From the NCBI GenBank assembly GCA_900754775.1, contig CAAEDZ010000337.1, forward strand, positions 1 to 8,426: 8,426 nucleotides of DNA, written 5' to 3'. The first letter of the stretch is position 1; every line of letters starts with the position of its first letter. Positions 3,469 through 8,253 of the stretch are shown here, piece by piece. The translations under genes were made by a program, and so were the position numbers. The notes beneath the pieces are model-generated. The model did no database searches and was not told the origin of the DNA. It was given only the letters and a program-made list of their open reading frames with translations. This DNA is from Clostridia bacterium (GTDB lineage: Bacteria > Bacillota_A > Clostridia > Christensenellales > Aristaeellaceae).

Positions 3469-5058
3469 ATGAGCTATCAGGCATTGTACCGCGCATGGCG
3501 GCCGGAGACGTTTTCGCAGATCGTCGGGCAGGACGCCGTGGTAAAAACGCTGCGCCATCAGGTGGAGACCGGGCGCGTGGCCCACGCCTATCTGTTCTGC
3601 GGCACGCGCGGCACGGGCAAGACCACCGCGGCCAAGGTGCTTTCCCGCGCCATCAACTGCCTGCACCCCGTGGATGGCGACCCCTGCGGCCAGTGTGACG
3701 TGTGCCTGCAACTCAAGCAGGAAAACAGCATGGACGTCATCGAGATCGACGCCGCCTCCAACAACGGCGTGGACGAGATACGCGATCTGCGCGAAAAGGT
3801 CAAGTACCCCCCGGCGGTGGCCAAATACAAGGTCTACATCATCGACGAGGTACACATGCTCTCCACCGGCGCATTCAACGCGCTTTTGAAAACGCTGGAA
3901 GAGCCGCCGGCCCACGCCGTGTTCATCCTCGCCACCACCGAGCCGCAGAGACTTCCGGCCACCATACTCTCCCGCTGCCAGCGCTTCGACTTCAGGCGCC
4001 TGAGCGTGGAGACGATGGTCGAACGCATGATGGTGGTGCTGGGCGGCATCGGCCGCACGGCATCGGAAGAGGCCCTGCACGAGATCGCCCGCGCCGCCGA
4101 GGGCGCGATGCGCGACGCCCTCAGCATCCTCGACGTCTGCCTTTCCTACACGGACGGGGAGGTGGACCTCGCCCTCGCGCGCGACGTACTGGGCACGGCG
4201 GGGCGCGAGTTCCTCTTTGATTTCGCCGCTGCGCTGCTTTCCAGCGACGCCCGCAGCGCGCTTTTGCAGATCGACGAACTTTTGCGCCGGGGGCTGGATC
4301 CCCAAGTGTTCGCCCGCGAGGTGGCGGAGCATTTGCGCGCGCTGCTGCTGGCGCAGACCGTGGGCGAGGCGGCGGAGGAGCTTCTGGAATGCACGCCCGA
4401 GGACGCGCAGCGCTACCGCGAACAGGCGGGCAGCGCCGTGCGGGAGCAGCTTTTCCGCCTCATGGAGCTGTTCATGCGCGTGGAGCCGGACATGAAGTGG
4501 GCCGCCGACCCGCGGGCAATGCTGGAACTGACCGCCGTGCGCGCCTGCTGCCCGGAGGGGGAGAAGGACACCTCCCTCGCCGAGCGCGTCGGGCATCTGG
4601 AAGCGGCCATCGAGCGCGGCGCGGTCGCCGCCCCGGCAAGGGAAGCGCCCAAACCCGCCAAGGCCCCCGCGCCCGCGAAGGAGCGCGCCCCCAAGGCCGC
4701 GCCGCCGCCCAGGAGCGCCGCCGAAGCGCCGCCGCAGTATTTGCAGGCGGTGGAGGCGCTTTCCAAGGCCAACCCCTCGATGCGCGCGGCGCTGGAGGGC
4801 ATGAAGTTCGCGGGCTATGAAAACGGCGTGGTGACGGCGGAGTTCGCGCGCCCGCAGCTGATGTTCATGAAGATGCTCGAGCGCAAGCGCGAGGCCATGG
4901 AGGCCGCCCTCACCGAGGCGTTTGCCGCGCCGACCAAGCTGGTGATGCGTCTGGAGGGCGAGGCCGCGCCGCAGGGCGCCGCCGCCACGCAGGCCCGCCG
5001 CGTCATCGAGCAGAGCTACGACGTCTTTGGCCGGGAGAACATCGACCTCACGGACTGA
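3469..5058 (+). CDS. dnaX: DNA polymerase III subunit gamma/tau
   Basis: DnaX is the AAA+ motor subunit of the clamp loader, which places the beta sliding clamp on primed DNA and links polymerase to helicase. The ATG at 3469 follows GGAGG (3459-3463) by 5 nt. In the 529 residues can be seen: Walker A GTRGTGKT (45-52); zinc-binding Cys64, Cys73, Cys76 and Cys79; Walker B with DEVH (126-129); sensor 1 ATTE (155-158); the SRC arginine finger (168-170); and a sensor 2 arginine in GAMRDAL (Arg215). A collar region follows to about 385. Next come a Pro/Ala/Lys-rich linker (about 386-423) and a C-terminal tau-type domain (about 424-500). I see no A-AAA-AAG slippage site like that of E. coli, so a full-length tau is the likely product. 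The usual downstream partners, a YbaB-type protein and recR, are absent; asnS follows after 111 bp under its own promoter. Confidence 0.97.
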   Translation: MSYQALYRAWRPETFSQIVGQDAVVKTLRHQVETGRVAHAYLFCGTRGTGKTTAAKVLSRAINCLHPVDGDPCGQCDVCLQLKQENSMDVIEIDAASNNGVDEIRDLREKVKYPPAVAKYKVYIIDEVHMLSTGAFNALLKTLEEPPAHAVFILATTEPQRLPATILSRCQRFDFRRLSVETMVERMMVVLGGIGRTASEEALHEIARAAEGAMRDALSILDVCLSYTDGEVDLALARDVLGTAGREFLFDFAAALLSSDARSALLQIDELLRRGLDPQVFAREVAEHLRALLLAQTVGEAAEELLECTPEDAQRYREQAGSAVREQLFRLMELFMRVEPDMKWAADPRAMLELTAVRACCPEGEKDTSLAERVGHLEAAIERGAVAAPAREAPKPAKAPAPAKERAPKAAPPPRSAAEAPPQYLQAVEALSKANPSMRAALEGMKFAGYENGVVTAEFARPQLMFMKMLERKREAMEAALTEAFAAPTKLVMRLEGEAAPQGAAATQARRVIEQSYDVFGRENIDLTD

Positions 5059-5108
5059 CGGCCAGAGCGCTGAGAAAGCCCGCCCATGCTGTCAACATCT
5101 TTGAATGA

Positions 5109-5137
5109 TTGACGTTTCGCCCCCGCGCGGGTATAAT
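5109..5137 (+). promoter_or_regulatory. Near-consensus sigma-A promoter for asnS
   Basis: TTGACG (5109-5114) is followed by a 17-bp spacer and a perfect TATAAT (5132-5137). Transcription would start near 5144, leaving a leader of about 26 nt. That is too short for a T-box riboswitch, which controls many Firmicute aminoacyl-tRNA synthetase genes. An imperfect inverted repeat (gtcaacat at 5091-5098, atgattgac at 5105-5113, one bulged base) overlaps the -35. Confidence 0.88.
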
Positions 5138-5169
5138 AGAGACTGACTTGTTGGAAAGGGGATACCCAT

Positions 5170-6564
5170 ATGACCACGTTGGTACGGGAACTGTTTGCCG
5201 CCCCGCCCGCCGAAGCGCGCGCGGGCGTGAAGGTGTCGGGCTGGGTGCGCACCATGCGCGAATCGAAGGCGTTTGCCTTTGTGGAACTCAACGACGGCAG
5301 CTATTTTAAGAACCTGCAGATCGTCCTCGAGGCGGACAAGCTGGAAAACTACCACGAACTGACGAAAAAGATCGGCGTGGGCGCGGCCATCGAGGCCGAG
5401 GGCGAACTGGTGCCCACCCCGGAGATGAAGCAGCCCTTTGAACTCAAGGCCACGGCCCTCACCGTGCTGGGCGAGAGCCCCAGCGATTACCCCCTGCAGA
5501 AAAAGCGCCACACGCTGGAATACCTTCGCACCATACAGCATTTGCGTCCGCGCGCCAACCTCTTCCAGTGCGCCTTCCGCGTGCGCTCGCTGGCGGCGCA
5601 GGCCATCCACCGCTTCTTCCACGACCGCGGCTTTGTCTACGTGCACACCCCCATCCTCACCGGCAGCGATTGCGAGGGCGCGGGCGAGATGTTCCGCGTC
5701 ACCACGCTGGACGCGGGCGAGCCGCCGCGCCTGCCGGACGGCAGCGTGGACTTTGACAAGGACTTCTTTGCCAAGCCCGTGAGCCTGACCGTTTCCGGCC
5801 AGCTCAACTGCGAGTGCATGGCGCTGGCCTTCCGCGATGTGTACACCTTTGGCCCCACCTTCCGCGCCGAAAACAGCTACACCCCGCGCCACGCCGCCGA
5901 GTTCTGGATGATCGAGCCGGAGATCGCCTTCGCCACCCTCAAGGAGGACATGGACCTGCAGGAGGAGATGATCAAGTACATCCTCGCCGCCGTGCTGGAA
6001 GAGGCAAGGCCGGAACTGGAGTTTTTGAACAACTTCGTGGACAAGGGCCTCATCGCCCGTCTGGAGAGCGTGCGCGACGCCGACTTTGCCCGCGTCAGCT
6101 ACACCGAGGCCGTGGACATCCTCACAAAGAGCGGCCAGCAGTTTGAGTACCCCGTGTTCTGGGGCTGCGATCTGCAGACCGAGCATGAGCGCTACCTGAC
6201 CGAGAAGCACTTTGGCCGCCCGGTGTTCGTCACCGACTATCCCAAGGAGATCAAGGCCTTCTACATGCGCATGAACGACGACGGCAAGACCGTGGCCGCC
6301 GCCGACCTCCTGGTGCCGGGCGTGGGCGAACTGTGCGGCGGCAGCCAGCGCGAGGAGCGGCTGGACGTGCTTACCGCGCGCACCGAGGAGTTGCACATGA
6401 AGCCGGAGGACTACTGGTGGTACCTCGAACTGCGCAAGTACGGCACCTGCAAGCACGCCGGCTTTGGCATGGGCTTTGAGCGCCTCATCATGTACCTGAC
6501 CGGCATCGCCAACATCCGCGACGTGCTGCCCTTCCCGCGCACCACGCGCAACTGCGATTTCTAA
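5170..6564 (+). CDS. asnS: Asparaginyl-tRNA synthetase
   Basis: AsnRS is a cytoplasmic class IIb synthetase that charges tRNA-Asn with asparagine using ATP. The ATG at 5170 follows GGAAAGGGG (5153-5161) by 8 nt and gives 464 residues, normal for the family. An N-terminal OB-fold anticodon-binding domain spans about 17-105 ([18 protein letters not shown]). The catalytic domain follows. It has motif 1 around 147-165 ([17 protein letters not shown]), motif 2 at [19 protein letters not shown] (231-249) and motif 3 at GFGMGFERL (431-439). The C-terminus [10 protein letters not shown] is typical of AsnRS rather than AspRS, and the large insertion of bacterial AspRS is missing. A stretch at about 181-205 ([16 protein letters not shown]) fits the insertion seen in some clostridial AsnRS proteins. 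A genuine AsnRS implies direct charging of Asn in this organism. It is probably monocistronic, between its own promoter and the terminator at 6573-6608. Confidence 0.97.
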
Positions 6565-6572
6565 GGACCGGC

Positions 6573-6608
6573 AAAACAAAGCGCCTTCCCGGCATGGGAG
6601 GGCGCTTT
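6573..6608. terminator. Terminator between convergent asnS and the DUF4375 gene
   Basis: A 13-bp stem pairs 6578-6590 with 6596-6608, with one G-U pair and a 5-nt loop (ggcat). Read leftward, the stem ends in TTTGTTTT, a good U-rich tail for the leftward gene cluster. Read rightward, the stem ends in only three T, so it is weaker for asnS but probably used. Confidence 0.82.
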
Positions 6609-6627
6609 CGCCGTTTCAGCGGGGCCT

Positions 6628-7152
6628 TCAGCGTTCAAACGCCTCGGGGTGGGCGGCGGCAAAGTCGAGCATGGCTTCTTCAAAGCCCAGTTCTTCCCGC
6701 AGCTGCACATAGGCAGTGTCAACATCGTCAAAGGGATAGGCCTCGCAGATGGCGGCGTATTCTTCCTTCCACGCTGTATCCGGCGTGGGGTAGAGGGGAA
6801 AGCCGTCCAGCGTCGCAAGGTCTATGCCGTTTTCCGCCGCGAATGCCTCGTAGGCGTCGGCGATGGGGTCAAGCCCCAGCAGGCGCAGGCTGTCTGATAC
6901 GCGCACAGCCATGGCGGGGCCTTCGTTGCAGAAAAAGGTGCAAAGGCCGCCGCAGAGCATCTCCATATCGAAAATGGCGGCCACGTAGAGCGCCCGCGCC
7001 GCCTCGGGCAGGGCGTCAAAGCCCTCGTCGTAGGTCGGGCCGCCGGCGCTGAGGCCGAGGATGCGGACATAGAGGTCGTCGTAATCCTCCCGCGCGCTGG
7101 CGGCGGGGCAGAGAAGCAGCAAAAGAAGCAGCAGACAAAGGACGCGTTTCAT
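6628..7152 (-). CDS. Secreted DUF4375/DMP19-like protein
   Basis: Function unknown. The start is the ATG at 7152, with AAAGGGGA (7161-7168) 8 nt upstream, giving 174 residues. The N-terminus MKRVLC followed by a run of leucines and ending PAASA is a clear Sec signal peptide, probably cut after Ala20 (ASA|RED). Cys15 is preceded by Leu rather than Gly, Ala or Ser, so lipoprotein processing is unlikely. The mature part (about 48-115) matches the pattern of the DUF4375/DMP19 family as I recall it: LPEAARALY, then FDMEMLCGGLCTFFCNEG (61-78) in place of the usual D-x-E-x-N-G-G-F-x-Q-F-F-x-N, then SLRLLGLDPIADAYEAF. Cys67, Cys71 and Cys75 lie in this core. Most members I know of are cytoplasmic, so the export signal is notable. 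It begins 37 bp after the radical SAM gene and could be co-transcribed with it, though it also has its own promoter. The family call rests on motif memory. Confidence 0.72.
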   Translation of the reverse strand: MKRVLCLLLLLLLLCPAASAREDYDDLYVRILGLSAGGPTYDEGFDALPEAARALYVAAIFDMEMLCGGLCTFFCNEGPAMAVRVSDSLRLLGLDPIADAYEAFAAENGIDLATLDGFPLYPTPDTAWKEEYAAICEAYPFDDVDTAYVQLREELGFEEAMLDFAAAHPEAFER

Positions 7153-7188
7153 GATCCCATTCCCCTTTCTCCCATGCGGTTTGAAGAC

Positions 7189-7217
7189 ATTATACCACAG
7201 TCGCGCCCGCTTTTCCA
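7189..7217 (-). promoter_or_regulatory. Promoter for the DUF4375 gene
   Basis: Read leftward: TGGAAA (7217 to 7212, four of six -35 matches), a 17-bp spacer, then a perfect TATAAT (7194 to 7189) with a TGn extension. Transcription would start near 7182, 30 nt before the ATG. The -10 overlaps the TAA stop of the radical SAM gene (7192 to 7190), so this promoter lies at the very end of that gene. Confidence 0.7.
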
Positions 7218-7840
7218 CCGCCCGGCAGGCGATAGGAGAATACGTCAAAGCGCGTCACGCCCATCTTCCGCAGGGCGGCGACGCTTTTTTGCACGTCCCT
7301 TTCCGTATTGTAGCCGGGGATGCGCGGCACGCGCGCCAGCACGCGCTGCGCGCCCAGCGTTTCAAGCGCCAGACGCAGGTTGAAAAGCGCGCGGGCGTTG
7401 TCCCCGCCGGTGTAGGCGCGGTAGATGGCCGGATCAACGTCCTTGACGTCAACGATCACTTCGTCGAGCGCCGGGAGCGCCGCGCGGGCGAGGCCTTCGG
7501 GAACGTTCAGGCTCGTCTCGGCGGTCAGCCGCCACGCCTTGCCGCAGCATTGGCGAAAGGCGGCGATGAAGGGCGCGTACAGAAGCGGCTCGCCGCCGCC
7601 AAAGGTCACGCCGCCGAGCGTGGCCTGAAAGTAGAGGTCGTCCACGCGCGTCATTTCGTAAAGCTCCTCCGGCGCGACCATGCGCGCGGGCGTTTCTTCC
7701 TTCAAAGCCTGCGGGTTGAGGCAGTACCTGCAGCGCAGCGGGCAGCCGCGCGCCGCCGCCAGCGTGGTCACGCCCGCGCCGTCGCTGCCCATGCGGTGGC
7801 GGCAGAGGGCGAAGAGCGGAAACAGCGGCGCGGCGCTCAC
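7190..7840 (-). CDS. Short radical SAM protein, glycyl-radical-activase-like
   Basis: This enzyme should bind a [4Fe-4S] cluster and cleave S-adenosylmethionine to make a 5'-deoxyadenosyl radical; the target is unknown. The start is the GTG at 7840, whose GTGA overlaps the TGA stop of the upstream gene by 4 nt, so the two are translationally coupled. The frame continues upstream through that gene, but that part is shadow. The 216-residue product has the cluster motif CPLRCRYC (Cys33, Cys37, Cys40), the SAM-binding GGGEPL (81-86), and later DVKD (131-134), YTGGDNA (143-149) and RIPGYNTE (173-180). These follow the order in pyruvate formate-lyase activating enzymes. It lacks the extra eight-Cys ferredoxin insert of many activases and the C-terminal SPASM Cys cluster of peptide maturases. 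No glycyl radical enzyme gene is in the window. N-terminal RHRMGSDGAGVTTL precedes the cluster and looks family-specific. The fold call is firm; the role is open. Confidence 0.9.
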   Translation of the reverse strand: MSAAPLFPLFALCRHRMGSDGAGVTTLAAARGCPLRCRYCLNPQALKEETPARMVAPEELYEMTRVDDLYFQATLGGVTFGGGEPLLYAPFIAAFRQCCGKAWRLTAETSLNVPEGLARAALPALDEVIVDVKDVDPAIYRAYTGGDNARALFNLRLALETLGAQRVLARVPRIPGYNTERDVQKSVAALRKMGVTRFDVFSYRLPGGGKAGATVV

Positions 7841-8253
7841 GCTTCGCCGCCCTCGGGCGCGACCTGACCCAGCAGCACTTCGCCCGCCTCCGGCGCGGGC
7901 AGGGCGGCGTCCGTGGGATCGTCCGTCGGGGCGATCTCGCCCAGCACGATCTCCTCCCCCGGCGCGGGCGTGGCCGCGGGGCGCGCGGCGTCGATGAGCG
8001 CCTCCACGGCGCTGCAGCCGCTCAATGCCGTCACCATGCCGGCGGCGACGCCCGCCAACGCCACCGCCTTGCACAGGCGGCGGCGCTTTGCGAGCGCTTC
8101 CTCCAACTGGCGCACTTCGGCCTCGCAGCGCGGACAGGTGCCGCGGCACTCGCCTTTGAAGCCGCATTCCTCCGTCTCCCACGGGATGTCGTTTTGCCGG
8201 GCGATCCCGGCGCGAATTTCCTTTAAGGTATGGCAGACTTCCTTGCCGCGCAT
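7837..8253 (-). CDS. Small Cys-rich protein with late membrane segment and lipobox
   Basis: Function unknown. The start is the ATG at 8253, because GGGGAGG (8261-8267) lies 7 nt upstream and MRGKEVCHTLKEIR reads as a conserved N-terminus; the frame is open further up to 8388 without a better start. The 138 residues fall into three parts. Residues 1-57 are hydrophilic and helical with a metal-site-like set, Cys30, Cys36, Cys40 and Cys43 (ECGFKGECRGTCPRCE), plus Cys7. Residues 57-80 are KRRRLCK followed by a hydrophobic stretch ending LSGC, a lipobox with Cys80. Residues 81-138 are acidic and Pro/Ala-rich, with two related motifs, GEEIVLGEIAP (99-109) and GEVLLGQVAP (124-133). I recall similar CHTLK...GTCPxCEAEVR proteins of unknown role in Clostridia and Bacteroidetes, unverified. 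The protein overlaps the radical SAM gene by 4 nt, so a joint role is likely. It could be a metal-binding anchor, a partner or a substrate. Confidence 0.85.
   Translation of the reverse strand: MRGKEVCHTLKEIRAGIARQNDIPWETEECGFKGECRGTCPRCEAEVRQLEEALAKRRRLCKAVALAGVAAGMVTALSGCSAVEALIDAARPAATPAPGEEIVLGEIAPTDDPTDAALPAPEAGEVLLGQVAPEGGEA

Follow-up and report, generated by a model that had tools for sequence, protein, structure and literature searches.

Activases of the radical SAM (rSAM) superfamily characteristically install a radical at a single glycine in a large target enzyme. In pyruvate formate-lyase activating enzyme (PFL-AE), Asp16 and Asn38 are described as the residues that anchor this target glycine (PMC9326890). 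The rSAM-modified RiPPs with repeated cores include the TvgA/TvgB system, in which TvgB is described as an rSAM-SPASM enzyme that makes cyclopropylglycine at the valines of TVGG (PMC9062424). Electron transfer between rSAM proteins has also been reported (PMC10470005). In the open-access literature, to the extent that its text was accessible, we found no description of the pair that we report here, in which an activase-type rSAM enzyme is encoded together with a small protein. The pair looks like an undescribed protein-modification system and not like an activator deprived of its target: where known activases have a single glycine in a large enzyme, here there are short motifs in small membrane-anchored proteins, often several in each.

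The pair lies on the minus strand of an 8,426-nucleotide stretch of DNA, the whole of which we call the window. Its features, with the basis for each, are as follows.

8253-7837, minus strand: small-protein gene, 138 aa, with an ATG start (open reading frame and translation).
8080-8253, minus strand: N-terminal Cys domain, residues 1-58, with C7 and the cluster C30-x5-C36-x3-C40-x2-C43 (8125-8235).
8014-8073, minus strand: hydrophobic stretch, residues 61-80, with a lipobox-like LSGC end (C80 conservation and translation).
7933-7947, minus strand: glycine motif 1, VLGEI, residues 103-107, a proposed modification site (G105 conservation).
7861-7875, minus strand: glycine motif 2, LLGQV, residues 127-131, a proposed modification site (G129 conservation).
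7837-7840, minus strand: GTGA overlap, formed by the stop of the small-protein gene and the start of the rSAM gene.
7840-7190, minus strand: rSAM gene, 216 aa, activating-enzyme-like, with a GTG start (PF04055, PDB and fold matches).
7715-7783, minus strand: span from D20 (7781-7783) to N42 (7715-7717), the equivalents of PFL-AE Asp16 and Asn38.
7721-7744, minus strand: CPLRCRYC, the SAM-cluster CxxxCxxC, residues 33-40 (C33, C37 and C40 invariant in 71 aligned sequences).

These features confirm what a preliminary description of the window had reported, namely a Cys-rich protein of 138 residues and an rSAM protein of 216 residues joined by a GTGA overlap. The four-Cys cluster that it noticed is real, as C30, C36, C40 and C43 are invariant in an alignment of 79 small-protein sequences, in which C7 and C80 are at least 90% conserved. 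It was also right to call the small protein membrane-like, given that residues 61-80 are hydrophobic and end in LSGC, and the rSAM core that it recognized matches Pfam family PF04055 (E 1.7e-15). Inspection of the sequence further revealed Shine-Dalgarno-like runs, GGGGAGGG and GAGGG, ahead of both gene starts.

The surroundings of the pair in the window are ordinary, with a GGDEF-domain protein, a family 28 glycosyltransferase, a clamp-loader subunit, a class II tRNA synthetase and a DMP19-like protein. The last of these is encoded downstream of the pair (6628-7152, minus strand; PF14300, E 5.8e-14) and has a signal-peptide-like start, and at another locus (L051) an ORF similar to it also comes after the rSAM gene. 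At a relative's locus (L042, 6303-8291), the divergent neighbour is a GH25 muramidase with LysM repeats, and the start of the window's plus-strand ORF from 8378 resembles this muramidase ORF. A scan of named genome contigs returned one locus, in Candidatus Pullichristensenella stercoripullorum, where the small protein is 91% identical over its length.

The two genes keep company well beyond the window. Among 29 genomes or records with either partner, the window included, 24 have the partners adjacent (22) or fused (2), in agreement with the expectation of the preliminary description that they should be neighbours elsewhere. The other five records comprise three that are cut by a contig end, one in which the genes are apart (G016) and one with the enzyme but no partner (L089). 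This count leaves out two loci with weak small-protein matches that lack the Cys domain (L006 and L008), the more distant activases L016-L018, and L009, a repeat of the G001 contig. Since most records were located via the small protein (the exceptions being the window, L089, L090, G002 and G006), adjacency of the rSAM gene was not built into the count.

A similar picture emerges from the 250 genomes of the window's family, where 10 encode both proteins, one the small protein only, two the rSAM only and 237 neither, giving totals of 11 genomes for the small protein and 12 for the rSAM. Nine of the 10 genomes with both have the genes side by side, and all three singletons, G001 (small protein) and G002 and G006 (rSAM), lie at contig ends, the rSAM copy of G001 being cut off. 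In G016, each gene has a contig of its own, and the distances to the nearest contig end are 3.5 and 4.7 kb. Searches with the small protein outside the family detected it in 5 of 297 genomes of the order, 2 of 398 of the phylum and 11 of 341 of the class, with G001 counted in each; because this broad search used the small protein only, rSAM members without it may exist outside the family. Separate contigs from several families of the class carry the pair, as does one genome of the same phylum outside the class, and this recurrence across families indicates that the pairing is more than chance.

Scans of viral contigs for the small protein and for the fused protein revealed no relatives, and the rSAM search there returned two, L089 and L090. 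One of them, L090, carries a Cys-domain protein that the small-protein scan of viral contigs had missed; this large protein and its rSAM (4842-7314) are followed by a PARG-type gene (PF10021). In L089, the related rSAM is a 145-aa ORF that adjoins a leucine-rich-repeat protein, and no Cys domain was found in the 2.4 kb of sequence at this locus. The activase-like rSAM ORF begins within the end of the BspA-type leucine-rich-repeat ORF, the two being within 1-934. Among the cellular loci, L046, L047 and L048 come from one genus, probably Christensenella, as hinted by an rSAM named from C. massiliensis. There the pair lies downstream of Ser/Thr kinase, PP2C-type phosphatase, FHA-domain and trypsin-FHA genes, which were assigned by Pfam matches for L046 and by eye for the other two, as were the listed neighbours at the remaining loci. 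On this basis we neither claim nor dismiss a part for the pair in signalling.

The small protein is composed of an N-terminal Cys domain, a hydrophobic helix that ends in a lipobox, and a disordered tail. AlphaFold2 predicted a helix at residues 3-20, a Cys loop and a long helix at residues 41-89, with a 10-residue mean pLDDT of 82-93 over residues 1-60 and below 50 across most of the tail. The protein belongs to a sizeable family, with 193 homologues at E<=1e-3, and of 7998 candidates scored with a 17-row profile, 1294 reached E<=1e-4; several members are named as Clostridia. Known families and folds offered little guidance: the small protein matched no Pfam family at E<=1 and no Pfam or NCBIfam family above cut-off, a fold search gave six matches with none at E<=0.001, and its profile had no match at E<=1 among solved structures.

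As in bacterial lipoproteins, the hydrophobic stretch of the window's protein ends in a lipobox (LSGC), and a lipobox-like end is present in 159 of the 190 homologues long enough to check. The remaining 31 belong mostly to one paralogue group, exemplified by P0036. Bacterial lipoproteins have a short n-region ahead of the hydrophobic stretch. This is absent from the window's small protein, in which 60 residues with the predicted Cys domain come first. At one locus, L043 (G001 C190), small-protein genes occur in tandem on the minus strand (540-983 and 107-604), whereas the window has a single copy; the upstream copy, like P0036 and its relatives, is without a lipobox and has a single ICGLI site.

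We consider the repeated glycine motif in the tail to be the best clue to function. In the 79-sequence alignment, G105 is invariant and G129 is at least 90% conserved. Neither changes in any of the 18 rows from the window's own group, the window being one of them, which is weak evidence because most tail sites there vary little (18 of 58 fall below 85%). From 197 proteins we obtained 190 tails and, after dereplication, 104. In these, the pattern [LVIMT]xGx[VIPLMA], which is loose and was defined after the tails of the small-protein family had been seen, occurs 304 times, against 88.5 expected from shuffled tails. At least one motif is present in 102 of the 104 tails and at least two in 93, while two tails have none. 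The residues enriched around the tail glycines are L at position -2 (4.1-fold), M at -1 (3.5-fold), E at +1 (2.1-fold) and V at +2 (2.9-fold); the commonest residue after the motif glycine is E at +1 and, at +2, V followed by P.

The enrichment extends to five tails outside the discovery set (L039 and L077-L080), which contain 16 motifs against 4.09 expected. These five belong to a set of 17 loci, each from a different genome, with 47 motifs in total against 12.8 expected; the other 12 tails nearly duplicate members of the discovery set, so that the five alone make up the separate check. The 17-locus count left out the window, L045, L047, L050, L083, L084, L090 and the second copy in L043.

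The Cys domain is not confined to small proteins of the window's kind. In layout (a), that of the window, it precedes the hydrophobic helix with lipobox and the tail. In layout (b), represented by L049, there is no hydrophobic helix, and the protein has an N-terminal CxNGH ribbon and seven motifs. In layout (c), the Cys domain is instead C-terminal: in L050 (5889-7109) it is carried by a tubulin/FtsZ-type GTPase (PF00091, E 9.7e-24) whose gene overlaps with the rSAM gene, and in L083, L084 and L090 by a protein with an unassigned N-terminal part, next to which the rSAM gene adjoins. In layout (d), found in L081 and L082, the rSAM and the Cys domain form one chain, with the Cys domain C-terminal.

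The partners of layout (c) have single motif-like sites, ITGIL and IIGKV in L050 and TLG[LV][VIL] in L083, L084 and L090. We dropped these as support, as a shuffle control found them no commoner than chance, with 2 seen against 3.01 expected for L050, 1 against 1.83 for L083, 1 against 1.92 for L084 and 2 against 1.52 for L090. Given this lack of enrichment, the motif is not established as a feature shared by every partner. In layout (d), the fused gene is followed by one for a small lipoprotein, which has a short signal peptide and a single motif, VVGMM in L081 and LMGIP in L082, where 0.13 and 0.37 motifs were expected. The frames overlap by 8 bases in L081, and the lipoprotein gene begins 75 bases on in L082. 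Both split lipoproteins have the short n-region. We regard this layout as suggestive of a tail substrate, not as proof of one. A search for further fused loci that covered five genomes from the family of G1021, one from that of G926 and nine from the order of G1021 recovered none beyond those already known.

To relate the enzymes of these layouts, we built a midpoint-rooted tree of 27 rSAM sequences trimmed to about 205 residues, with L047, L051, L052 and L089 left out. Enzymes of types (a) and (b) cluster together in a group that also takes in L038 (99/97), the type (c) enzymes adjoin this group (88/95), and the fused enzymes group with activases (100/98). Judging from this tree, activase-type enzymes may have acquired the Cys domain on more than one occasion, or the placement of the root may mislead.

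Among solved structures, the rSAM enzyme itself is nearest to PFL-AE. Its best match among PDB sequences is 3c8f, PFL-AE (E 2.4e-24), and its AlphaFold2 model (pLDDT 92.8) best matches 3cb8, which is PFL-AE with AdoMet and a peptide substrate (E 4.1e-14, TM 0.81). The protein has both an rSAM core with CxxxCxxC in an activase fold and the Asp/Asn pair of activases, the latter assigned from the alignment to the PDB match and from the spacing to CxxxCxxC. D20 and N42 are invariant in 71 aligned rSAM sequences, and D and N occupy these positions in 100 of 100 rows checked, a set in which some proteins, the window's included, were counted twice and which contained three more distant activases. This conservation supports a glycine-centred substrate as a probable target, but it does not separate the rSAM family from activases: as ordinary activases carry the same residues, D20 and N42 do not single out a function. 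PFL-AE H202 has a role in that enzyme, and in the same alignment a different residue stands at its position in the window's rSAM. Apart from the three Cys of the SAM cluster, the 71 sequences have a single nearly invariant Cys, C99, and no auxiliary cluster is therefore visible in the enzyme. Family searches gave no SPASM match in the window's rSAM, L081 or L082, and the Pfam search gave no RRE-type match in the rSAM.

We propose, with moderate confidence, that the pair consists of a dedicated modifying enzyme and its protein substrate, the Cys domain guiding the enzyme to the glycine motifs of the tail in a RiPP-like manner. Under this proposal, the N-terminal Cys domain would bring the activase-type rSAM to the motifs, often LxGEV-like, of the disordered C-terminal tail, and radical chemistry would begin there, most likely at the glycine alpha-carbon and once per motif. 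A type (a) tail would be modified in the cytosol and then exported, cut and lipidated via the lipobox C80, most likely leaving at the surface a tail held by its lipid and lacking the Cys domain. Cutting and lipidation of this kind would agree with the split lipoproteins of type (d). That the Cys domain acts as a guide or helper is suggested by its being the constant partner of the enzyme, on either chain. Besides this domain, lipoprotein-type partners have the repeated glycine motif as their second constant feature, and that the chemistry takes place at the motif glycines is suggested by the presence of an activase-type enzyme beside repeated glycine motifs.

The preliminary description had taken the two proteins for a dedicated pair, as we do, and had offered three roles. 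Among these, modification of the small protein itself is best supported, by the tail motif and by the two loci with domain and tail on separate proteins; the lipobox, the repeated motif and the modular layout had escaped it. A more far-reaching version of our proposal, which we put forward only tentatively, is that activase-type rSAMs guided by a portable Cys domain abstract alpha-hydrogens from the glycines of short repeated motifs in surface lipoprotein tails. The products would be tails modified at multiple glycines or even bearing radicals, with the Cys domain possibly supplying an auxiliary cluster in trans, and with the FtsZ-like protein and another larger protein perhaps being targets in other lineages. 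If enzymes of this kind do act on the short glycine motifs, this would mean new chemistry and a new guide domain for RiPP-like modification, as well as a function for a large nameless protein family.

The main rival to tail modification, unlikely in our estimation but the best of the alternatives, makes the small protein an accessory whose Cys domain holds an Fe-S cluster and gives electrons or the cluster to an rSAM that acts on another molecule. The domain has four invariant Cys in addition to C7, and some members show weak matches to families of the Fe-S type, the best E values being 0.12 for Fer4_4 (24 of 79 members), 0.014 for PFLE_PFLC (8 of 79) and 0.0064 for GlcF (14 of 79). These matches are, however, weak throughout, the best single value being E 0.00049 for PaaD in 2 of 79 members, and zinc-ribbon families are also among them, so that the evidence on Fe-S versus zinc points both ways. 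The Cys spacing resembles part of the SPASM signature, and the window's small protein has a weak match to the sulfatase maturase family (E 0.019); as only 2 of 79 members match this family, we left the resemblance as an idea.

The position of the domain also bears on an accessory role. In L081 and L082 it is C-terminal on the rSAM, the side described as housing auxiliary clusters in other rSAM enzymes in the source that also supplies the precedent for electron transfer among rSAM proteins (PMC10470005). The partners of layout (c) all have the Cys domain and no motif enrichment, which favours a donor role somewhat. Yet such a role leaves unexplained both the repeated glycine motif of lipoprotein-type tails and the motif-bearing lipoprotein gene that follows the fused enzymes. 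The two readings can both be true, as the mechanism of tail modification may itself include a Cys domain that donates electrons or a cluster.

It is improbable, in our view, that the rSAM works in trans as the activase of a glycyl radical enzyme encoded elsewhere in the genome, with the small protein regulating it or tethering it at the membrane. Such a role would accord with the fold match to PFL-AE, with the retained glycine-anchoring residues and with the best family matches of the enzyme, which are to activases (TIGR02494 and TIGR02493). The fused enzymes, which group with activases in the tree, also come near the TIGR02494 cut-off, with 165.9 bits for L081 and 168.8 for L082 out of 174.35. 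The window's rSAM nevertheless misses the curated cut-offs, reaching 108 of 174.35 bits for TIGR02494 and 82.6 of 231.75 for TIGR02493, and it co-occurs closely with the small protein. We scanned ORFs of more than 80 aa at all loci and in the window for the glycyl-radical-enzyme motif and found none beside any member within the flanks read, which as a rule were 3 to 16 kb of DNA per locus, the shortest member loci being about 3 kb or less. The preliminary description had held that its reading would fail if rSAM homologues always sat beside a glycyl radical enzyme, and this is not what we see. The sole match came from the clear activase control, the more distant activase of L017, in the ORF just upstream, indicating that the scan can detect such an enzyme.

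Finally, and just as improbably in our view, the glycine motif may serve another surface protein as a signal for docking, folding or sorting, with the enzyme modifying some other residue of the tail or of the Cys domain. This reading would accord with a motif that is short and varied and is not enriched in layout (c) partners. Against it, glycine is the known target of this kind of enzyme, and no tail residues are more constant than the motif glycines (G105 invariant, G129 at least 90%).

Returning to tail modification as the preferred reading, the pair can be set beside three known systems. With PFL-AE and the other activases (TIGR02493, TIGR02494), the enzyme has in common the fold, CxxxCxxC and the equivalents of Asp16 and Asn38. 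Unlike activases, it scores under the family cut-offs, has a small Cys-domain partner and has no glycyl radical enzyme that we could find beside it. Family TIGR04133, rSAM_w_lipo, presumably comprises, to judge by its name, radical SAM enzymes paired with a lipoprotein, and the name suggests a likeness to the present pairing. The window's rSAM differs from this family, whose model has 350 positions and a cut-off of 425 bits, in that TIGR04133 is absent among its 25 best NCBIfam matches, the last of which scores 13 bits.

The likeness to TvgA/TvgB is in gene organization, since there too an enzyme gene lies near a small protein with a repeated short C-terminal motif (PMC9062424). Unlike in that system, the window's enzyme has no SPASM match, its partner is lipoprotein-like, and the constant part of the partner is a Cys cluster. 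In common with RiPP systems, an enzyme gene stands beside one for a small protein with a conserved N-terminal part and a variable, motif-bearing C-terminal part. The pair thus has all the defining features of neither class: it would work like a RiPP maturase and its precursor, and its enzyme is built like an activase.
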